Source: Bacillota bacterium
Lineage (GTDB): Bacteria > Bacillota > Sulfobacillia > Sulfobacillales > JAIMBI01
NCBI GenBank assembly: GCA_021846565.1
Contig: JAJZWS010000029.1
Coordinates: 1-36,408, forward strand
Reading direction: 5' to 3'
DNA length: 36,408 nucleotides
Position numbers and translations under genes: made by a program. Each line of letters begins with the position of its first letter. The stretch's first letter is position 1. Below are positions 18,766 to 35,013 of this stretch, one piece after another. The notes under the pieces were generated by a model. The model was not told the origin of the DNA, made no database searches, and was given only the letters and a program-made list of their open reading frames with translations.

Positions 18766-19671
18766 GTGCGCAGGGTGGAGCTGTTGGACCCTCGGAACGA
18801 CTTTCTGTTCAAGCGGATCTTTGCAGCAGAAGAAAATCGCGACCTCTTGGTTCATCTGCTGAACGCGGTATTTGTCGATGCCGACCAGCCCCCGGTGGCC
18901 GAGGTGGAGCTGTTGAACCCCGCGATCGACCCGATGTCCCTCAGTGACAAGCTGACGATTTTGGACCTGAAGGCGCGCACCGAGACGGGTGTCCTGCTTG
19001 ATGTGGAGATGCAGTTGACCGACGAGCGGGACATGGCCGCGCGGACGCTCTACTACTGGGCCAAGTTGTTTGACCAGCAGCTGAAGTCCGGCGGAGCTTA
19101 CAAGGCCCTGCACAAGACGGTGACGATTAACTTGCTGAACTTTGTCTACCTGCCCTCGGCCCCGGCGCACAGCACGTTTCACCTGCGCGAAGATCGCCGT
19201 GCCGACCTGTTGACCGACTTGTGTGAGGTGCATTTTGTGGAATTGCCGAAGGTGGGGCGGGTTGAGCGGTCGGACGTCGCCCTGGAGCGGTGGGTGTTGT
19301 ACTTGACCCTGGACACGTTGGCCCAACGGGAGGTGTTGGCCATGGGGGACCCGGTGATGCAAAAGGCTGTAAACGTATTAGAGTTTCTGAGTCAGGACCA
19401 GCAGGTCCGCGAGCAGTACGAGGCCCGGCAAAAAGGCCTGCGGGACTTCCGATCAGCGATGGAGACCCAGCGCGAGAAGGGCCGGGAAGAAGGCCGGGAA
19501 GAAGGCCGGGAGGAAGGCCGGGAGGAAGGCCGGGAAGAAGGCCGGGAAGAAGGCCGCCAGAACCTGCGCGCCGCCGCCCGCGCGTTGCTGGCCATGGGCG
19601 TTTCCCGGGAAAAGGTGGCCCGGGCCACGCAGCTGTCGACGGCTGAGGTCGAGGCACTGGAACGGCCCTAG
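18766..19671 (+). CDS. Rpn family recombination-promoting nuclease (PD-(D/E)XK)
   Basis: The 301-residue product belongs to the Rpn/PDDEXK_2 'transposase-like' nuclease family, whose E. coli members promote RecA-independent recombination. The start LLDPRNDFLFKRIF is the family hallmark. The catalytic core is visible as LTILDLKARTETGVLLDVEMQ (Asp ... ExQ; shown here in parts, about residues 65-86). A charged coiled linker with six GREE repeats follows, then the typical C-terminal mini-helix block LLAMGVSREKVARATQLSTAEVEAL. The GTG start is preceded by GGGAGG. A truncated second copy lies directly downstream, indicating local duplication. These genes are commonly multicopy and variable; the cellular role here is unknown. 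Confidence 0.88.
   Translation: MRRVELLDPRNDFLFKRIFAAEENRDLLVHLLNAVFVDADQPPVAEVELLNPAIDPMSLSDKLTILDLKARTETGVLLDVEMQLTDERDMAARTLYYWAKLFDQQLKSGGAYKALHKTVTINLLNFVYLPSAPAHSTFHLREDRRADLLTDLCEVHFVELPKVGRVERSDVALERWVLYLTLDTLAQREVLAMGDPVMQKAVNVLEFLSQDQQVREQYEARQKGLRDFRSAMETQREKGREEGREEGREEGREEGREEGREEGRQNLRAAARALLAMGVSREKVARATQLSTAEVEALERP
19480..19551 (+). repeat. Six in-frame 12-bp repeats encoding GREE
   Basis: Six tandem GGCCGGGA(A/G)GAA units each encode Gly-Arg-Glu-Glu in the linker of the Rpn protein. The downstream truncated copy has only two units (20027-20050). The units keep frame, so copy-number change by slippage would alter linker length without breaking the protein. Confidence 0.9.
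19552..19665 (+). repeat. 114-bp direct repeat with 20051-20164
   Basis: The 3' end of the Rpn gene and the 3' end of its truncated copy are the same over 114 bases except one substitution (GCC versus GTC, Ala to Val). The spacing between copies is 499 bases. Upstream of the repeat the two copies are clearly diverged, so the near identity suggests recent gene conversion. Confidence 0.9.
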
Positions 19672-26473: not shown

Positions 26474-26707
26474 ATGCCAACAGCCAACATCTTGTCGGCG
26501 CTGACGCGCATCACGGGTCTGCTGGTCACCGTCGCGGGGGGCTTGTTCACGCTGGTCATGGTCTATGGCGGCATCCGATTCATGACGGCATCCAGTCCAC
26601 GCAGCGTCGAGGGGGCCAAAAGTGTCATGGCGCGCGCCGCCTTGGGCCTGCTGCTGATCCTGATGGTGGACGTGGTCAAGAACCTGCTCACGTTTATCGC
26701 CAAGTGA
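26474..26707 (+). CDS. VirB2/TrbC-like pilin subunit
   Basis: The 77-residue protein has two hydrophobic helices (about residues 12-35 and 53-72) separated by a short polar loop (TASSPRSVEGAKSVMAR). This is the layout of VirB2/TrbC-type conjugative pilins and of the pilin-like subunits in Gram-positive and CPR type IV systems; helix 1 ends in the characteristic VMVYGGIRFMTA. Start: ATG with a perfect AGAGGAGG seven bases upstream; an in-frame ATG at 26399 lacks a site. It is the first gene of the operon, and its stop overlaps the next start (TGATG). It has no Flp-type prepilin cleavage motif. It would be the main fibre or channel subunit; that is an inference. Confidence 0.78.
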   Translation: MPTANILSALTRITGLLVTVAGGLFTLVMVYGGIRFMTASSPRSVEGAKSVMARAALGLLLILMVDVVKNLLTFIAK

Positions 26708-27462
26708 TGAACCCGGTGTTGTTGTTCCTGCAGTACTTGGACGGGCTGGTCGTGGGGGGCGTCACGGCTGGGGCGCAGGCGGCGCTCACGCAGGTCGTGT
26801 TTTTCCCCCTCACCTGGACCGGCCCCGCCGTGAGGCTGCTGACGTGGTCGCGCGACCTGGCGGGCGGGGCCATGGGTGGGGCGTTGGTGGTGGCGGCGAT
26901 TACGGCGGTATGGCCAGGGCTTATGCGGCATGCGCCGTCGGGCCCTTGGTCCGCGATCCTGGTTCGTGCCGCGCTGGGAGCCGTGGTGATGGGGGCGCTG
27001 CCCAGTTTCATGACGCTGCTGCTCACGCTGAACAACACGGTGCTGGCGGCGCTGCTTCAGGGATCGGCTGCGGGAGCGGTGCACTGGTCGGCGGGAGCGC
27101 TCTTGCTGTCACCGCTGTTGGCTCTGGGCCTCGTGGGCGTCCTGGCCGGCCTAGTGCTGTATCTGTCGCTATGGTTCGTCGTCCGGTCCGTGTATGTGTA
27201 CTGGCTGGCCGCGTGGCTGCCTTGGGCCGCATTGGGCTTCGTGGCCACCGGAGACCCGGCGGTGTTGTGGCGGCCCTTCCGGCGCCTTTTGGCCATGGTG
27301 CTGGTGCAGACAGCCCAGGCGGCGGGGTGGTGGATCACCGTGCGGCTGGTGATGGAAGCGGCCTCGTTCGGGGGTCTGTTGGTAGCCGCCGGCGGTCTGT
27401 GGTTTCTCACGCGCATTCCTAACGAGGTGGCACGGCTGGGAGGCGAACGCACGTTGTGGTGA
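26707..27462 (+). CDS. VirB6/TrbL-like polytopic membrane protein
   Basis: This ~251-residue protein is almost wholly hydrophobic, with about six or seven predicted membrane helices (including VLVVAAITAVWPGL-like, LALGLVGVLAGLVLYLSLWF, and a final GLLVAAGGLWFLTRIP). Its position between a VirB2-like and a VirB3/PrgI-like gene, its size and its topology fit VirB6/TrbL, the inner-membrane channel component of type IV secretion. Sequence conservation in that family is low, so the call rests mainly on context. The ATG shares its A with the upstream stop codon, and no ribosome binding site is visible. Translation therefore probably depends on coupling to the pilin gene. Confidence 0.65.
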   Translation: MNPVLLFLQYLDGLVVGGVTAGAQAALTQVVFFPLTWTGPAVRLLTWSRDLAGGAMGGALVVAAITAVWPGLMRHAPSGPWSAILVRAALGAVVMGALPSFMTLLLTLNNTVLAALLQGSAAGAVHWSAGALLLSPLLALGLVGVLAGLVLYLSLWFVVRSVYVYWLAAWLPWAALGFVATGDPAVLWRPFRRLLAMVLVQTAQAAGWWITVRLVMEAASFGGLLVAAGGLWFLTRIPNEVARLGGERTLW

Positions 27463-27728
27463 GGCGAGAAATTCCCTTGCCGTTGCCCAGCGAGGCGGGG
27501 GCGCTTTTGGGCATCAGCCTGGGCGACGCCCTGGTGCTGGCGGTAGGGATTGGGCTGGCAGGGATGGTCTACGCGGCGGGGTCGGGCCATGGATGGCCCT
27601 GGGCGGCGGCTGTGGGGGCGATGGCGGTCGTCGCCCTGGTGCGGATGGATCGCGATCCGTTGTGGATGCATGTCGGGTGGTGGGGCTGGTACCACGTGAC
27701 CCCGCAGCGTTTCATCGCGGAGGCCTGA
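27456..27728 (+). CDS. PrgI/VirB3-like membrane protein
   Basis: The 90-residue protein starts VVRREIPLPLPSEAGALLGI. Two adjacent membrane helices follow (about 25-40 and 47-62), then a short C-terminus reading DPLWMHVGWWGWYHVTPQR. This matches the PrgI family of Gram-positive conjugation systems, in which PrgI is the VirB3 counterpart placed just before the VirB4 ATPase. The order here is the same. The GTG start overlaps the upstream gene by seven bases. A 59-base gap to the next gene is the only real gap in the operon. Confidence 0.7.
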   Translation: MVRREIPLPLPSEAGALLGISLGDALVLAVGIGLAGMVYAAGSGHGWPWAAAVGAMAVVALVRMDRDPLWMHVGWWGWYHVTPQRFIAEA

Positions 27729-27787
27729 GCGAAACGCGGCACCCAGCCGCCGACCGCAAGGTTAAATCGGAAAGGGGAGTCAATAAG

Positions 27788-28408
27788 GTGGTCAAAATGA
27801 CGGCCGGAATGCGCCGGCTGTACCCGCTCCGGGCCATTGGCGGCGGGATGTGTTTGTTGGAACGGGATCGGTTCGTGGCGGTGCTGGAGGTGACGCCCGT
27901 GGGCTTTGCTTTAAAGAGCGAGCGCGAGCGCTATGCGCTCGTGCTGCAGTTCACCAACTTCCTGAATGGGCTCAGCTTTCCAATCCAGGTTCTGATTCGT
28001 ACGGACCGTCTGCGCTTGGATGAGTACCTGGCCGAAGTCAAGTCCCAAGAAAATCAGCTCGAGCCGCACCTCCGGCCGGCTTTGGCAGATTACATCCGGT
28101 TCCTGCAGGAGTCGGCGACCAGCGAGCATCTGCTGCGGCGTCGGTTTTTCCTGGTGCTTTCTTGGCAGGGGCAGGATTCCCGCAGCCGGCCACTCAAGCG
28201 GGGGGAGGTGTTGTGGGACGAGGCACAGATGGAATTGACCCGGCGCCACGCGGCCGTGGCGGAAGGGTTGCGTCCCGCAGGGGTCCGCATTCGCCAGCTG
28301 CCCACCGAGGAATTGTACGACTTTGTGTTTTCGGCACTGTCGGCGGCCGAGCTGCCCAAGGAGGTGAATTGGTCGTGGGACGTCGCGCCTTGGCCCGAGG
28401 ACTCATAG
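27788..28408 (+). CDS. VirB4/TraC N-terminal-domain-like protein
   Basis: The 206-residue protein has the pattern of the stand-alone 'TraC-like' proteins that precede VirB4 in Gram-positive type IV systems: a short beta-strand region (FVAVLEVTPVGFALKSERER), then FTNFLNGLSFPIQVLIRTDR and a helical LDEYLAEVKSQENQLE segment. In many VirB4 proteins this part is the N-terminal domain; here it is a separate gene. No Walker motifs are present. The GTG start has AAAGGGGAG upstream; upstream in-frame sequence to 27593 overlaps the prgI gene and was excluded. It overlaps virB4 by 34 bases. Confidence 0.72.
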   Translation: MVKMTAGMRRLYPLRAIGGGMCLLERDRFVAVLEVTPVGFALKSERERYALVLQFTNFLNGLSFPIQVLIRTDRLRLDEYLAEVKSQENQLEPHLRPALADYIRFLQESATSEHLLRRRFFLVLSWQGQDSRSRPLKRGEVLWDEAQMELTRRHAAVAEGLRPAGVRIRQLPTEELYDFVFSALSAAELPKEVNWSWDVAPWPEDS

Positions 28409-30042
28409 CCGACGAGAACTCGGACGACACGGAGCGCCGCCGTCGGCTGGGGTCCGTGTGGCCCGACTCGATTGAAGTCCTCCCGGATGCCTTGGCTATA
28501 GACGACCGATGGATACGGGTGCTGGGGGTGCGGGGCTGGCCGCGCGAGGTGCGCGCCGGATGGTGGCGCCCCCTGTTGGAGGCGCCTTTCGCTCACGTCG
28601 TGGTGCTGGGCATCGAGCCCCTGGGGTCGGAAGAACAGGTGGCCCGCCTCACCCGGCGGCTCATCTGGCACCAGGGAGCGGAGCGCTCGCGGGCTCAGCT
28701 GGGGCGGTTGCCGGACGCGGCCAGCCAAACCGCGCTGGCCGACGCGGAGGAACTGCGAAGGGAAATCGCTCGCGGGGCGACCCGGCTGTTGCGCGTAGGA
28801 TTGGCGGTGGTGCTGCAGGCACCGACGCAGGCCGAGCTGGACCGGCGTAGCCATCAGGTGATGACCTTGGCTGAAAGCCTCATGATGCCGCTCCGGCGGT
28901 GCCGCTTTCAGCAGGCGGACATTTTTCGCAGCGTCCTGCCCGGGGGCTTTCCGTCCTACGGGGCGCGTGAAATGGACAGCCGTGCCGCCGCCACACTTTT
29001 TCCTTGGATGGGGGACGATGTGCAGCATCCCCATGGACAGGTTTGGGGGGAGAACCCGCTCACGAAAAGCCTGGTGGTGGTGGACCGCGAGCGCCTGCCC
29101 GCGCCGCACAGCCTCACCGTGGCATGGTCCGGAGCCGGCAAGAGCTTCGCGACCAAGGTTCTTATCCTGCGGGCCAGGTACCATGGGCTGCCGGTAATGG
29201 TGGTGGATCCCGAGGGTGAGTACGGTTCGCTGGCGGATCCGTCCCACGTCGTGCATGTGGGCCACGGAGCCGGCCTAAACCCGCTGGCGCTGTATGACGA
29301 AAGCTCGGCGGAGCGTTCCCGCCGGGCCAACTTCGTGGTGCGGTGGTTGGAGACGATGGGGACGCGTCTACCCCGGCGGATGGCCGAAACGGTCAAGGCG
29401 GACCTCGCGACCTCGGACGAGACGGCGCCCAGCGCTTGGCTGGCCCGCCTGGCGCTGGCCGACAGTGCCACCGCCGAACGCGTGGGACCCGCCGTGCGGG
29501 AATGGCTGTCCGTGATGGGGGAGTCCATGAAGCCATTCCCCGACGATGGCATTACCGTGGTGGACCTGTCACGGCTGCCGCCCAGTCTCACGATGGCCGC
29601 GTACCTGGTAACGGTGGAGCACGTGGTCGCGACGCTGTACCAGGGCGCGCCCCGGTGGGTGGTGTTCGACGAGGCGTGGCACCTCTTGGCGAACCCGCAG
29701 CTGGCGCCGTATCTGGAAGAGTTGTACCGCCGGGCGCGGAAGTGGCACACCGCGCTCACGCTGGTGACCCAGGATGCTCACGATGCATTGCGCTCGGTGT
29801 CAGCGCAGGTGTGCCTGCGCAACAGTCCACTGGTGTTGCTGCTGCGACCGCATCCCGACGCCGTACCGGAACTGGCCCAGGTTTTCCATCTCACCAAGCC
29901 GGAGACGGCGCTGTTGGAAGGGTCTGCGGTCGGGGAGGGCCTCCTGATGGTGGATCGCGATCGCATTCCGATTCGGATTCTGGCCAGTCCTTTAGAAACA
30001 CGTCTCATCAAGGAGGGAGAAGCTCGTGCCCGTGCCGATTAA
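28375..30042 (+). CDS. virB4: VirB4-family type IV secretion ATPase
   Basis: The ~555-residue protein is a VirB4/TraC-type AAA+ motor that powers assembly or substrate transfer at the inner membrane. Walker A is AWSGAGKSF (about residues 250-258); the canonical first Gly of GxxxxGKS is Ala here. The strand after it is VMVVDPEGEYGSL, typical of VirB4. Walker B is WVVFDEAWHLL (about 428-438), followed by the TLVTQDAHD sensor-like block and the arginine-rich YRRARKW. The N-terminal part lacks the strands supplied by the preceding gene, so the two proteins probably work together. The GTG start was chosen because AAGGAGG (28358-28364) lies ten bases upstream; TTG at 28369 is an alternative. Confidence 0.88.
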   Translation: MGRRALARGLIADENSDDTERRRRLGSVWPDSIEVLPDALAIDDRWIRVLGVRGWPREVRAGWWRPLLEAPFAHVVVLGIEPLGSEEQVARLTRRLIWHQGAERSRAQLGRLPDAASQTALADAEELRREIARGATRLLRVGLAVVLQAPTQAELDRRSHQVMTLAESLMMPLRRCRFQQADIFRSVLPGGFPSYGAREMDSRAAATLFPWMGDDVQHPHGQVWGENPLTKSLVVVDRERLPAPHSLTVAWSGAGKSFATKVLILRARYHGLPVMVVDPEGEYGSLADPSHVVHVGHGAGLNPLALYDESSAERSRRANFVVRWLETMGTRLPRRMAETVKADLATSDETAPSAWLARLALADSATAERVGPAVREWLSVMGESMKPFPDDGITVVDLSRLPPSLTMAAYLVTVEHVVATLYQGAPRWVVFDEAWHLLANPQLAPYLEELYRRARKWHTALTLVTQDAHDALRSVSAQVCLRNSPLVLLLRPHPDAVPELAQVFHLTKPETALLEGSAVGEGLLMVDRDRIPIRILASPLETRLIKEGEARARAD

Positions 30043-30559
30043 GGTGTCCGCGACACGGTTGGTGCTGCCTGCGGCCGGCCTCCTGCTGGCCGCGGCCAGC
30101 GTGTACAGTGCACATCAGCAAGCGCCGGTTTGGGTGCTGGCACGCGCCGTGCCGGCCGGCAGCGCGCTGTCGCCGAGCGATTTCCGCCAAGTGGCCCAGG
30201 TGACGACGGCGGGCCCACCCGCGCATGCCGTGGCGCGGGTCAACCTGGAGCCCGGTCAGACCGTAGTAGGCGCGGACTTTCGCTCGACGGTGCACGGTGC
30301 GGCGCCGGGAGCCACGTTGTCGGTCGCGCTTGACAGCGTGGCGCTGGCGGGGATCACGGCCGGGGACCGGGTCGAGTTTGCCGTCGTCGGGCGGCAGGGA
30401 TCCTGGATTTCGCCCCCGGTTGTCGTCACGGCGCTCGTGGCAGGGGCCTATGGCGGCGCCGGCAGCGTGACGCTCACGGCCCCGATGCCGGTGTTGACCG
30501 CATTGGTGCAGCACAACCTGGGGTCGGCCAGCGTGATTAACCTGGGGCCGACGCCATGA
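30026..30559 (+). CDS. SAF-domain protein, CpaB/RcpC-like
   Basis: The 177-residue protein has one N-terminal membrane helix (about residues 12-29), then an SAF domain. The SAF pattern reads VWVLARAVPAGSALSPSDFR (residues 35-54) and LEPGQTVVGADFRS. The next block, ALDSVALAGITAGDRVEFAV, resembles the RcpC/CpaB 'G-x-x-x-GDRVDV' region. CpaB/RcpC is the periplasmic or extracytoplasmic assembly factor of Tad/Flp pili. It is shorter than typical CpaB (about 250-300 residues). The GTG start has AAGGAGGGA upstream and overlaps virB4 by 17 bases, directly linking the type IV secretion part to the Tad part of the operon. Confidence 0.75.
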   Translation: MPVPIKVSATRLVLPAAGLLLAAASVYSAHQQAPVWVLARAVPAGSALSPSDFRQVAQVTTAGPPAHAVARVNLEPGQTVVGADFRSTVHGAAPGATLSVALDSVALAGITAGDRVEFAVVGRQGSWISPPVVVTALVAGAYGGAGSVTLTAPMPVLTALVQHNLGSASVINLGPTP

Positions 30560-31533
30560 GCGCCTGGTCGCAGGTGGTGGTCGGCACCACTCACAGCGAG
30601 TTGCGCACCATGAGCGAGGCCTCGGGTGCCGCGGTGGTGGACTCGTGCGCGGCCTTAGAGGCGCAGCTGGCCGACCCCGGCACGCAGGGCGCTGTGGTCA
30701 CGCAGGACCTGGAAGGGTTGTCGGTAGAGCGGGTGCGCCGCTGGGCGGCCGACCACGCCGTCGCCGTATGGCTGGAGGAGGCGCCGCCCCCGGCGTGGCG
30801 GGCGCTGCCCAGCAGTGTGACCGTCTGGCATGGCGAGTTGACCGAGCCTACCCTGGCCGCCTGGGTCGAGACCCTCGTGTCGCCCTCCGGCTTTGGCGAA
30901 GACGGGCATGTGCTGGGGGTGGTGGGCTTGGCCGGCGGCGTGGGGACGACCACGGCGGCGTGGGTGTGGGGGCAGCAATGGGCGGCGCGCCAGGCGCCCG
31001 TGCTGTGGGTCGACGCCGACTGGGCGCAGGGGGGACTGACGGAAAAACTGGCGCCCACGCTTTGGCGCGACCGCCGCCCGCCGCGCCCCGTGGCTTGTCG
31101 CGGTGGCACACTCCTGCCTTCCCCCGCCCCGTGGGAACTGACGCCGCCACCCGAGGACGCCGAGGCGCCGTCCGTGGTGGCCGCGAAGGTCGGAGTGGTG
31201 GTGGTGGATCTGGGACGGGATCTGCGCGCGTGGACGGCGGCGCGGTGGGCGGCCCTGGCGGACCACGTGGTGGTGATCGGTCATCCCGAGCAGGGGGAGC
31301 GTGCCGTGGAAGTGGTTGGCCTGCTGCGTGAGTTGCATCCCGGTGTCGAGATAGCCGTGAAGGGGACGGTGCTGCCCGGACGCCATCGGGGGCTGGCCAG
31401 CGCGCTGCCTGAGGGATGGCCGGGAGGACCCCGGGCCGCGTCGGAACGACGAGAAGGAGGTGTCCCATGGCACGACTGGTTTCAGAAGAAGGCGGCCGCC
31501 GCTTTCAACCGCTCCACGCACGGGAGCCGGTGA
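30556..31533 (+). CDS. CpaE/TadZ-like ATPase homologue
   Basis: The 325-residue protein has an N-terminal receiver-like or degenerate domain (about residues 1-110). A ParA/MinD-type P-loop region follows: LAGGVGTTTAAWVWG (residues 125-139), DADWAQGG and VVVVDLGRDL. The lysines of the ParA deviant Walker A are replaced (AGGVGTTT rather than KGGVGKT). This is common in CpaE/TadZ, which localise Tad pilus machinery. It overlaps the SAF gene by four bases. The C-terminal 22 codons overlap the start of tadA by 67 bases in another frame. Confidence 0.82.
   Translation: MSAWSQVVVGTTHSELRTMSEASGAAVVDSCAALEAQLADPGTQGAVVTQDLEGLSVERVRRWAADHAVAVWLEEAPPPAWRALPSSVTVWHGELTEPTLAAWVETLVSPSGFGEDGHVLGVVGLAGGVGTTTAAWVWGQQWAARQAPVLWVDADWAQGGLTEKLAPTLWRDRRPPRPVACRGGTLLPSPAPWELTPPPEDAEAPSVVAAKVGVVVVDLGRDLRAWTAARWAALADHVVVIGHPEQGERAVEVVGLLRELHPGVEIAVKGTVLPGRHRGLASALPEGWPGGPRAASERREGGVPWHDWFQKKAAAAFNRSTHGSR
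31454..31460 (+). promoter_or_regulatory. Ribosome binding site of tadA inside the upstream gene
   Basis: AAGGAGG lies six bases before ATG 31467, inside the 3' end of the CpaE-like gene. Its quality decides the start of tadA and confirms the 67-base out-of-frame overlap between the two genes. Confidence 0.85.
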
Positions 31534-32654
31534 CCAACCTGGCGGAGGTGAGTACGCGGGTGGTTCGTGAAGTGGAAGCCCGGCAGCCCGGTCAACTGGG
31601 GTACCTGGTGTGGACCGAGGAGCGTCTGGCGGCACTGGGGCGCGCGGTGGACGACTTGTTGGACGAATTGGACACGGAGGTGGGGGTGCGGCCGTTGGTG
31701 CGTCGCTCGGTGTTGAATCAACTGACCGGGCTTGGGGCGCTGGATGCGCTGCTGCTGGACGACCGCGTCACCGAGATCATGGTCAACCGCGCCGACGAGG
31801 TGATGGTGGAGCGGGGTGGTGTGTTGGAGCGCGTGCCATCGGTCTTTGCGGATGAAGCAGAGGTGGCGGCGTTGGCCCAGCGGCTGGCGGCCCGAGCCGG
31901 GCGCGATCTCACGACCGAACATCCGATGGCGGACGCCCGCCTGTCCGATGGATCCCGGATCTCCGTCATCCTGCCTCCTGTGAGCCGATACCCAGCCGTC
32001 GCCATCCGACGAACCCCGGAGCACCCGCCGGAGATCGACGATCTGCTCGCCAGCGGCGCGGTGACGCCCGAGGTGTGGCGGTTTTTGAGCGAGGCGGTGG
32101 CCGGACGCGCCAATGTGGTGGTAGCTGGCGGTGCCGGGGCTGGCAAGACGCATCTGCTGCGCCTCCTCATCGGGGCCGTCCCCGACGACCAGCGGCTGGT
32201 AATCATTGAGGATGTGCGCGAGCTAGACCTGACCCGGGCGGGGGTCGTGTCGCTCGAAAGCTCTGGCCGATACACCACGCATGACCTGGTGGTGCAGGCC
32301 CTTCGGATGCGGCCCGACCGCATCGTGGTGGGGGAGGTGCGGGCCCAGGAAGCTTTGGACCTCATTGAGGCCATGGCCACCGGCCATCCCGGCAGCTTTA
32401 CGACGGTGCACAGCCCGGGGCCGGGGTTGGACACGGTGTACCGCCTGGCACGGGCCGCGCTGCGCAGCGGCACCCCCCTGTCGTTCGACGTCCTGTGCCA
32501 GCAGATCCTGCGGGCGGTCGACGTCATCGTGTTTGTCGCGCGCACCGCCCAAGGCGCTCGGCACGTGGCGGAAGTGGACGGGATTGTGGAGGGCAGCGTG
32601 CAGCCGCACTTTCGGCGGGATGGGCTGGATCAATTGGTGCGGGTGGGTCCGTGA
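31467..32654 (+). CDS. tadA: CpaF/TadA-type secretion ATPase (VirB11/GspE superfamily)
   Basis: The 395-residue ATPase of Tad/Flp pilus systems should drive assembly at the cytoplasmic face. The N-terminal domain has LDALLLDDRVTEIMVNRADE (residues 92-111), typical of CpaF. The Walker A is GGAGAGKT (221-228). Walker B-type IIEDV (246-250), the Asp/Glu box MRPDRIVVGEVRAQEALDLI and the His box TGHPGSFTTVHSPG are all intact. The ATG with a perfect AAGGAGG was chosen over in-frame upstream codons. Because a VirB4 is also encoded in the operon, the machine would have two ATPases. The His box reads TVHSPGPG where most CpaF have TIHANSP. It shares four bases with tadB. Confidence 0.93.
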   Translation: MARLVSEEGGRRFQPLHAREPVTNLAEVSTRVVREVEARQPGQLGYLVWTEERLAALGRAVDDLLDELDTEVGVRPLVRRSVLNQLTGLGALDALLLDDRVTEIMVNRADEVMVERGGVLERVPSVFADEAEVAALAQRLAARAGRDLTTEHPMADARLSDGSRISVILPPVSRYPAVAIRRTPEHPPEIDDLLASGAVTPEVWRFLSEAVAGRANVVVAGGAGAGKTHLLRLLIGAVPDDQRLVIIEDVRELDLTRAGVVSLESSGRYTTHDLVVQALRMRPDRIVVGEVRAQEALDLIEAMATGHPGSFTTVHSPGPGLDTVYRLARAALRSGTPLSFDVLCQQILRAVDVIVFVARTAQGARHVAEVDGIVEGSVQPHFRRDGLDQLVRVGP

Positions 32655-33358
32655 ACCCGAGTCAGGCGTGGGGGTGGTGGGTGGCGGCCGCGGTGGCGGG
32701 GGGGCTGACGGCCGCCCGCCGCAGCGGCTGGCAGGCGGCACTGGGTGCGCTGGTGGGGCTCGGGCTCGGGTCCTGGGCCTTCGCGCTTGGGGGGATGCTG
32801 CTGGGAGTGGGGTACCAGACGGCTCAGCGGTGGCGTCAGCACTGGGCGGTGCGGGACGAGTGGGACTCGGAGGTGGAACAATTTCTGGAGCAGCTCCTGC
32901 TGGTGGCCGAAGCCGAGCCCTCGCTGGCGCGCGCGGTCGACCGGGCGTTGCCGCCGCACCTGCGGCCGCTGGCGCGGAGGCTGGACACCCTGGGTAAGCA
33001 ACTGGCCGCGGTGTGGCCGGTGCCGGCGCTGAGCCAGGCGTCGCGGGCGTGGCAGGTGCTGGCGCAGCATGGGGGGTCCGTGGGGGCCGTGGCCCACCAA
33101 ATGCTGGCTCAGCTGCGGCTGGACCGGCGGCTGCGCTGGGAGCGGGCGGCGGCCCTGGCCGGTGGCCGCGGCACGGTCAGCCTGCTGGCCGCAGCGCCGC
33201 TGGGCGTGGTGCTCCTGTTCTGGGGGATGGTGCCGAGTTTCTACACGGTCATGGTGACCACGGCCCCCGGTCAGGCGGCGATGATTCTGGCGGGCGGGGT
33301 CGGGTGGGGCGTTCTGGGGCTGGCCCATCGCGAGCGGGAGGAGGGGGGCCGTGCCTGA
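32651..33358 (+). CDS. tadB: TadB-like platform protein (T2SSF domain)
   Basis: The 235-residue inner-membrane protein has two N-terminal hydrophobic segments (about residues 9-25 and 28-52). A cytoplasmic helical part follows: VEQFLEQLLLVAEAEPSLARA ... LAQHGGSVGAVAHQMLAQLR. Two C-terminal helices close the protein. The cytoplasmic part is the short GspF/T2SSF-type helical bundle seen in TadB. It is shorter than most TadB (about 300 residues). The GTG start overlaps the tadA stop (GTGA). With TadC it would form the inner-membrane platform on which TadA acts. In-frame sequence back to 32495 is a shadow of tadA. Confidence 0.78.
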   Translation: MNPSQAWGWWVAAAVAGGLTAARRSGWQAALGALVGLGLGSWAFALGGMLLGVGYQTAQRWRQHWAVRDEWDSEVEQFLEQLLLVAEAEPSLARAVDRALPPHLRPLARRLDTLGKQLAAVWPVPALSQASRAWQVLAQHGGSVGAVAHQMLAQLRLDRRLRWERAAALAGGRGTVSLLAAAPLGVVLLFWGMVPSFYTVMVTTAPGQAAMILAGGVGWGVLGLAHREREEGGRA

Positions 33359-33974
33359 GCTGTGGGCCGGAGGGGCGACGCTTCTCTGGTCGGAGTGGGC
33401 CACAGGGGGAAGGCGCGTCGAGCGGACGGTGTGGTGGGGGGCGGTCGGGATCCTGTGGGTCCTGGGAGGCCAGAGCTTGGCGGCGGGCGGGCTGTTGGCG
33501 TTGGTGGCGCTGCAGTGGCTGCCAGACGCGGGCGGCCAGGCGGACGAGCGCCGGGCCCTGTGCCGCTTCTGGCAAGCGATGGCGCTCTTAGCGTCGTCGG
33601 GGATGCCGCTGCTGGCGGCCATCGAGGAGGCGGCGCCGGCCGGGCCGCTGGGCACGGACGTCCTTGCGCTGGCTCATCGGCTGAGTCAGGGGGATGACCG
33701 GGCGGGGGACGCGTTTGTCCAGGCGCACAACACGGTGGAAGGACGGCAGGTGGCGCAACTCCTGCGCACGGCGTGGGAGCATGGCCTCGACGCCGAGGCG
33801 GCCCACGCGCAGGGGCTCCTCTTGTGGGAACGCCTCGCCCAGGAAGAACGAGTGCGGGAGGCGAAGCGGCCGCTGTGGACCGCGGCGCTGCCGGGGGCGC
33901 TGCTCCTGATGGTGCTGGTGGTGTTTCTGGTGCCGCTGGCCAGCTTTCTCATCTCGGGATGGAGCGCGTTATAG
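33351..33974 (+). CDS. tadC: TadC-like platform protein
   Basis: The 207-residue protein has N-terminal helices (about 27-58), a cytoplasmic T2SSF-like part (FWQAMALLASSGMPLLAAIE ... EGRQVAQLLRTAWEHGLD) and a C-terminal membrane helix, ALLLMVLVVFLVPLASFLIS. The final helix and the preceding EERVREAKRPLWTAALPG resemble TadC. It is the last gene of the operon; the GTG start overlaps tadB by eight bases. No prepilin peptidase, TadD/E/F-like pseudopilins or secretin follow it. Confidence 0.78.
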   Translation: MPELWAGGATLLWSEWATGGRRVERTVWWGAVGILWVLGGQSLAAGGLLALVALQWLPDAGGQADERRALCRFWQAMALLASSGMPLLAAIEEAAPAGPLGTDVLALAHRLSQGDDRAGDAFVQAHNTVEGRQVAQLLRTAWEHGLDAEAAHAQGLLLWERLAQEERVREAKRPLWTAALPGALLLMVLVVFLVPLASFLISGWSAL

Positions 33975-34472: not shown

Positions 34473-34661
34473 ATGGCTAGCCACCTCGATGCGTTGACCC
34501 GGGAGATTCTCGCGCTCGGACACGAGGAGCAGCGGGAGCTCATCCGACGACTGCGCTTGGGTTTGCAAATTCCTAAAGAGGAGTGGGGCTGGCTGCGGGC
34601 TGCCGAGCCCGCGGTTGCCTTCTGGGACAATCCCCAGGACGCCGTCTATGACCGACCTTGA
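34473..34661 (+). CDS. Antitoxin of the MazF/PemK-type pair
   Basis: The 62-residue acidic protein starts MASHLDALTREILALGHEEQ and ends PAVAFWDNPQDAVYDRP. The 'FWDNPEDAxYD' ending is typical of the small proteins encoded directly before PemK/MazF-type toxins. The N-terminal helix probably mediates DNA binding or dimerisation, and the acidic tail probably blocks the toxin. Start chosen at ATG 34473, preceded by GGAAGGGAG. The longer in-frame frame from 34401 has no ribosome binding site. Its stop lies 14 bases into the toxin gene, so the pair is translationally coupled. Confidence 0.8.
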   Translation: MASHLDALTREILALGHEEQRELIRRLRLGLQIPKEEWGWLRAAEPAVAFWDNPQDAVYDRP

Positions 34662-35013
34662 GCCCCGGTCAGTCGTGCTGGTGAGGTTTCCGTTTACGGA
34701 TCTCTCGAGCACCAAGCGCCGGCCGGCGATCGTGGTCAGCACGACGGCGTTCCACCACGGGACCCACGACGTGATCGTGGTGGCGGTCACGAGTGTCCCC
34801 AGTGCTATGCCCGCCGACTTCCCGTTGATGGACTGGTCGGCGGGCGGGTTGGTCAAGCCATCGTGGGCACGGGCCGGAAAGATCCTCACGCTTCACGATT
34901 CCATAGTGGAGGACATCCTGGGCCGCGTGTCCGAACGGGATTGGGCGCAGATTCGACAAGCGTGGGATGCAGCACTGGCCCCTCTGTCGCGCGGCGGCCC
35001 GGCGGACGCCTAA
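34648..35013 (+). CDS. MazF/PemK family endoribonuclease toxin
   Basis: The 121-residue protein has the PemK/MazF fold signature: RSVVLVRFPFTDLSSTKRRP (residues 7-26), then AIVVSTTAF and the later WARAGKILTLHDSIVEDILG block. These toxins cut mRNA at short sequence motifs unless bound by antitoxin. The start ATG overlaps the antitoxin gene by 14 bases, so the two are co-translated. The residues used for catalysis (an Arg in the first block and a Ser/Thr further on) appear to be present. The pair may help stabilise the neighbouring accessory DNA; this is inference. Confidence 0.88.
   Translation: MTDLEPRSVVLVRFPFTDLSSTKRRPAIVVSTTAFHHGTHDVIVVAVTSVPSAMPADFPLMDWSAGGLVKPSWARAGKILTLHDSIVEDILGRVSERDWAQIRQAWDAALAPLSRGGPADA

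Follow-up and report, generated by a model that had tools for sequence, protein, structure and literature searches.

Composite conjugation regions with homologues of both type IV secretion system (T4SS) and type II secretion system (T2SS) genes have been described on the Sulfobacillus plasmids pL15 and pY0017 and in an integrated element of S. thermotolerans Kr1 (PMC6803676), and plasmids of Cutibacterium acnes carry a tad locus together with a VirB4 gene (PMC5696575). Chromosomal T4SSs lacking a relaxase occur both in Patescibacteria (PMC12102498) and in archaea, and in the archaeal Ced system the VirB2/VirB6/VirB4 set and the Ups pilus system are both required for chromosomal DNA exchange (PMC9905601, PMC11868833). 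Here, a ten-gene operon was examined at positions 26474 to 33974 of a 36,408-nt window, the contig JAJZWS010000029.1 of a 3.4-Mb draft genome (GCA_021846565.1) from the order Sulfobacillales, in which a conserved monoderm-type T4SS core and a VirB2-type pilin are encoded together with a VirB11-superfamily motor and its platform. Judged from its genes, the operon would encode a resident, domesticated conjugation-derived DNA-transfer machine with a Tad motor and platform, no longer part of a mobile element, a reading that we hold with slightly better than even confidence. An initial annotation of the window had taken T4SS and Tad genes normally to occupy separate loci; this generality is weakened by the composites known on the Sulfobacillus plasmids (PMC6803676) and on an Embleya plasmid.

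All ten open reading frames (ORFs) lie on the plus strand in the gene order given by that annotation (Table 1), their starts being predictions picked by Shine-Dalgarno sequence and orthologue length. The annotation also had nine genes overlapping or touching the next. Eight of the nine junctions do overlap, by 4, 7, 34, 17, 4, ∼67, 4, and 8 nt in gene order, and the sole departure is a 59-nt gap between ORF3 and ORF4, the latter having its own ribosome-binding site (GTG 27788).

Table 1. Genes of the composite operon (window coordinates) and the unlinked coupling ATPase of the same genome
Feature	Position	Strand	Length (aa)
VirB2-type pilin	26474..26707	+	77
VirB6-like membrane channel protein (ORF2)	26704..27462	+	252
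PrgI/VirB3-like membrane protein (ORF3)	27456..27728	+	90
VirB4 N-terminal domain, own gene (ORF4; TrsD/TraC-N-like)	27788..28408	+	206
VirB4 ATPase (ORF5)	28375..30042	+	555
SAF-domain CpaB-like protein (ORF6)	30026..30559	+	177
CpaE/TadZ-like MinD-family ATPase (ORF7)	30556..31533	+	325
TadA/VirB11-superfamily ATPase	31467..32654	+	395
TadB-like T2SSF platform protein	32651..33358	+	235
TadC-like T2SSF platform protein	33351..33974	+	207
VirD4-type ATPase of the window's own genome	G000:C37:36682-37968		

The gene assignments of the initial annotation were supported by profile searches, orthologue matches and a structure match for ORF2. The pilin matched Pfam T4SS_pilin (PF18895, 1.8e-6) above the curated cut-off. 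ORF2 by itself had no Pfam match, whereas 12 of 19 orthologues matched TrbL_4 (best 6e-8); the top PDB match of its AlphaFold model (predicted local distance difference test [pLDDT] 82.6) was VirB6/TrwI of the R388 T4SS (probability 1.00, template modeling [TM] score 0.51, E 0.056), which backs the predicted VirB6 identity in a supportive but not conclusive way, with no match below E 0.001. PrgI (PF12666) was matched by 4 of 12 ORF3 orthologues (best 8e-7), and ORF4 showed a weak resemblance to VirB4-N/TraC_F_IV/TrsD/SCO6880 (∼2e-3), with ORFs 3, 4, and 5 aligning onto the SCO6880 family in sequence order. ORF5 matched the CD1110 VirB4-like family NF045971 (4e-60; 203.9 bits, below the equivalog cut-off of 325), and its Walker A (WSGAGKS) and Walker B (DEAW) motifs are invariant among the sequences of the order. 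On the Tad side, the SAF protein (PF08666, 1.2e-4), TadA (TIGR03819, 1.3e-73, with invariant catalytic motifs) and TadC (T2SSF, 4e-6) were assigned, the SAF protein and TadC above cut-off. TadB scored below cut-off (T2SSF, 9e-5), with its position kept across loci, and ORF7 was weakly assigned by sequence to CpaE/TadZ (TIGR03815, 2.7e-4), a clear MinD/ParA domain occupying the same position in the module of family f34 (see below). Hence, the Tad/Flp set of TadA, TadB, TadC, SAF and TadZ is complete, with TadZ and TadB weakly assigned, and the VirB4 with intact motifs and, through orthologues, the VirB6 and VirB3/PrgI homologues of a monoderm-type (MPF_FATA-like) T4SS core are present. Such a core has no VirB11-type ATPase (PMC12857230), but TadA, of the VirB11 superfamily, is encoded in the operon. 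Among the ten operon genes, no Flp prepilin, prepilin peptidase or TadE/F was recognized; a genome-wide search was not made.

Conservation was followed across the order, with genomes, loci read and families numbered G, L and f, respectively; most assemblies were drafts. VirB4 was found in 40/42 genomes, and gene order was compared at 23 loci from three families (f1, f2 and f3). In all 23, pilin-VirB6-VirB3-VirB4N-VirB4-SAF-TadZ formed one contiguous same-strand block (22 whole, and one cut by a contig end and therefore the only locus without the pilin), and TadA-TadB-TadC followed it directly in 12 (six in f1, one of them cut by a contig end, one in f2 and five in f3). The SAF gene, which in the window overlaps virB4 by exactly 17 nt (30026 to 30042), adjoined it at every locus, bearing out the claim that the two belong to one unit. 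The proposed division into a T4SS half and a Tad half stands as regards the Tad-like identities, but SAF and TadZ travel more tightly with VirB4 than with TadABC. Because virB4 is two genes in every locus of the order holding both parts whole, a frameshift or sequencing error was excluded as the cause of the split. Similarly, since gene set and order are conserved, a chance neighborhood of T4SS and Tad genes was excluded by the order-wide synteny; the co-occurrence and order on which the initial annotation had chiefly staked its proposal were found in ∼14 genera and beyond the order. In one complete chromosome (G007; L041:1091-18142, L071), the entire composite operon is tandemly duplicated, with the second virB4 broken into frames.

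The upstream neighbors recurring order-wide were gatA, gatB, an rlmD-like gene, an amino acid permease gene and a thioesterase gene, and the block usually lies beside gatAB-rlmD in the same chromosomal surroundings across the ∼14 genera. This distribution, order-wide at a fixed chromosomal place, is not the mobile or patchy one of a conjugative element, and by conservation and position a mobile element or its remnant was rejected. A decaying remnant of an integrated conjugative element (ICE), as the related composites on plasmids and an ICE might suggest (PMC6803676), is extremely unlikely given the constant surroundings, the intact ATPase motifs and the presence in nearly every genome of the order.

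A second CpaF/TadA ATPase of ∼430 to 460 aa, ∼40% identical to the operon TadA, was found in 11/11 genomes of the order tested. In a tree built by a short search with Shimodaira-Hasegawa-like approximate likelihood ratio test (SH-aLRT) support only, the operon TadAs of the order formed a single clade (99), the second TadAs clustered with annotated CpaF proteins (95), and the TadAs of the Sulfobacillus plasmids and ICE were placed outside both groups. Because the operon TadA belongs neither with the clade of the host's second Tad locus nor with that of the Sulfobacillus plasmids, an origin of TadABC by recruitment from either was rejected. Distances for VirB4 and the operon TadA were correlated (r = 0.816, 0/2000 permutations) in a set that includes genomes where the genes are unlinked, and part of this correlation is expected from common descent.

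The Pfam coupling-protein profile gave weak but regular matches throughout the order. These represent a VirD4/TraG-type ATPase of ∼500 aa with intact and invariant Walker motifs, encoded once per genome on the chromosome, unlinked to the operon, in 35/42 genomes, which cover all 15 genera (G002 shows it as two contig-edge fragments). The coupling protein (VirD4) of a conjugative element was thus found, outside the operon. A Replic_Relax-like gene follows immediately in 30/30 loci checked and is itself followed in several genomes by a MinC-domain gene. The order-wide locus (G000:C37:36682-39104, or L205, in the window's own genome; L175 to L204) consists of a phosphoglucomutase-like gene at most loci, the VirD4-type ATPase gene and the Replic_Relax-like gene. 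Invariant residues and a structural model (pLDDT 87) suggest a PD-(D/E)XK nuclease fold for the Replic_Relax-like protein. Elsewhere in the class, families f9, f19, f34, f155, f161, f162 and f163 also carry the coupling ATPase alongside the module, and in most f9 and f155 loci the Replic_Relax-like gene adjoins it.

ComEC (PF03772) was detected in 0/42 genomes of the order, the same search matching 10/14 control genomes; within the class, 78/121 genomes have ComEC, none of them members of the order. Outside the order, VirB4 was found in 23/29 ComEC-lacking genomes versus 7/78 ComEC-bearing ones (Fisher test, 4e-12, with genomes treated as independent, though they are related). In three of the seven genomes with both (G080, G405 and G412), a coupling-protein gene lies beside VirB4, and by gene content these loci look conjugative. 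The six ComEC-lacking genomes without VirB4 all retain DprA and probably represent assembly gaps. Across the order, the genes for canonical transformation seem to be absent, and module-bearing lineages without canonical transformation keep the T4SS-Tad set; that the set replaced ComEC is not proved.

Two features point to DNA as the cargo, namely the missing ComEC and the VirD4-type ATPase encoded apart from the operon beside a nuclease-like protein. A domesticated DNA-transfer machine is supported by gene identities, gene order, conservation, intact ATPase motifs, the distinct other Tad locus, the co-occurrence of the coupling ATPase, the joint presence of such parts on the Embleya plasmid and the correlated VirB4 and TadA distances. 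In such a machine, VirB6, PrgI/VirB3, VirB4-N and VirB4 would form the membrane channel and pump, the VirB2-type pilin would provide a fibre or line the channel, TadA, TadB and TadC would together act as a pilus-type motor and platform, taking the slot held by VirB11 in Gram-negative T4SSs, and SAF and TadZ would position or brace the assembly. From the unlinked locus, the coupling ATPase and the Replic_Relax-like protein would feed or process DNA, which may be passed between neighboring cells by analogy with Ced and Ups of Sulfolobales, two systems induced by DNA damage. We infer a DNA substrate, a direction of transfer and a physical coupling of the T4SS and Tad parts; as to direction, the coupling ATPase favors export, and the absence of ComEC leaves room for import. 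More tentatively, and at somewhat less than even confidence, we propose that a resident machine combining a conjugation channel with a Tad-type motor and platform, and served by a coupling ATPase with its nuclease-like partner, took over from ComEC-based transformation in a deeply branching lineage of Bacillota, moving chromosomal DNA from cell to cell as a bacterial counterpart of archaeal Ced/Ups. If the machine moves DNA, bacteria lacking ComEC would have in it a chromosomal system for DNA exchange, one that allows a test of whether the channel of a T4SS and the motor of a type IV filament can act as one. The operon also bears on gene acquisition by the bacteria of this order.

Several observations weigh against a DNA-transfer machine of this composition. 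TadABC is detached from the seven-gene block in 11/23 loci of the order (a few kb off in three, one of them inverted, and beyond the stretch read in eight), with a distance of ∼24 to 32 kb in Sulfobacillus genomes, and the two halves therefore need not be one machine. Two machines might instead share the operon for regulation without contact, one a T4SS core and the other an additional Tad-type pilus with its pilin encoded elsewhere, as the separable TadABC and the distinct TadA trees would allow; however, the Tad-type SAF and TadZ genes never leave VirB4 and such composites are seen again on plasmids and in further families, and we regard this arrangement as very unlikely. A cell-wall hydrolase is not present in the operon, the match of the Replic_Relax-like model to the nuclease fold is weak (TM ∼0.3), and neither a classical relaxase nor an oriT was noticed at the loci, though relaxases were not searched for across whole genomes. 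The lack of a classical relaxase at the loci, together with the usually adhesive role of Tad systems and the ability of a monoderm T4SS to export protein (the 89K system, cited in PMC12857230), would suit a composite fibre or secretion machine with a non-DNA cargo, its Tad motor extending a VirB2-type adhesion fibre or its channel exporting protein, in a life on mineral surfaces. This is unlikely in our view, as the genomes tested already hold a separate CpaF/Tad locus, a nuclease-like protein accompanies the coupling ATPase, and related composites are conjugative (the Embleya plasmid; PMC6803676).

The ComEC pattern is also open to a simpler account. On a LigA tree, one change only is needed for the ComEC-bearing genomes (support 75/93), so that many independent events were not supported and the exclusion may be one evolutionary event. 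DprA, usual for single-stranded DNA import, was not found in most of the order and module-bearing genomes sampled; it was rejected as a sign of such import, and its absence counts against the simplest import model. Both points, and the conservation of the VirD4-type ATPase alongside the module, also speak against a DNA-import machine replacing ComEC transformation in the manner of Ced or Helicobacter pylori ComB, with the coupling ATPase used otherwise. Import would agree with the lack of ComEC in the order, with its near-exclusivity with the module class-wide, and with Ced, which imports DNA by VirB2/6/4 parts with a pilus ATPase and platform (PMC11868833), but it appears quite unlikely.

Beyond the order, relatives of the putative DNA-transfer operon were sought by a class-wide VirB4 search followed by reading of the neighboring genes. 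Modules of VirB6-VirB4-SAF-(TadZ)-TadA were found in f9 and f155 and one of pilin-VirB6-VirB4-(protein with a MinD domain)-TadA-T2SSF in f34, while the pilin-VirB6-VirB4 part was present in f19, f156 and f161; in f156 and f161, TadA was not found beside the T4SS part in the stretches read. The VirB4s of f9 and f155 group apart from those of the order, and plasmid VirB4s intermix with those of f19, f34 and f156/f161. A single origin for all class modules was therefore not supported, and several domestications are possible. Plasmid- or ICE-like regions in three genomes (L058, L059 and L060; G012:C2, G024:C1 and G010:C131), which resemble the published pL15/pY0017 backbone, carry a different VirB4 and a TadA ∼3 to 4 kb apart. 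The SAF protein had no match when compared with plasmids. The Embleya linear plasmid is typed as non-mobilizable by MOB-suite despite VirB4, VirD4, Replic_Relax and a Tad locus (NZ_CP108778.1, 266283 to 302000; L072, L073), so mobility typing may miss systems of this type.

Elsewhere in the window, a PemK/MazF-like toxin gene (34615 to 35013; PF02452, 1.7e-11) lies shortly downstream of the operon, preceded by a small ORF with no Pfam match. The gene at 18766 to 19671 encodes a transposase-like protein of the PD-(D/E)XK nuclease family (PF12784, 1e-56) that has an EGRE repeat close to the C terminus.

No description of the chromosomal order-wide operon, the unlinked coupling ATPase or the ComEC pattern was found in the open-licence literature. 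The pL15/pY0017 and Kr1 regions share VirB4, MinD-like, CpaF/TadA and TadB/TadC genes with the operon and add a TraG-like coupling protein (PMC6803676), but they are mobile, have a relaxase, and carry TadA and VirB4 outside the order's chromosomal clades, whereas the operon is chromosomal and syntenic with no relaxase within it. The linear plasmid of Embleya sp. NBC_00896 shares pilin-like, VirB6-like, PrgI/VirB4N, VirB4, VirD4 and Replic_Relax genes and, in a second block, SAF, a hypothetical protein, TadA and two T2SSF genes; it differs in being plasmid-borne, in the ∼10 kb between the blocks, and in its TadE/TadG pseudopilin genes. The canonical Tad/Flp pilus has SAF/CpaB, TadZ, TadA, TadB and TadC in the same order, with a Flp prepilin where the operon has a VirB2-type pilin. 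The chromosomal T4SSs of Patescibacteria, mostly without relaxase, share VirB4, TrsD, PrgI, VirB6 and VirB2-like genes (PMC12102498), in which report Tad genes are unmentioned, and the PAPI-1 transfer system of Pseudomonas similarly combines VirB4 and VirD4 with an essential type IV pilus (PMC12857230), but on a mobile island of a diderm and with a different pilus class. Archaeal Ced/Ted with Ups share chromosomal VirB2/VirB6/VirB4 genes outside mobile elements, with a pilus ATPase and platform, and Ted loci often hold MinD/ParA genes, as the operon holds a TadZ-like gene (PMC9905601, PMC11868833). Although these systems are archaeal and lack VirB3, and Ups, encoded at a locus apart, has pilins of its own, Ced with Ups would be the closest functional parallel to the operon.

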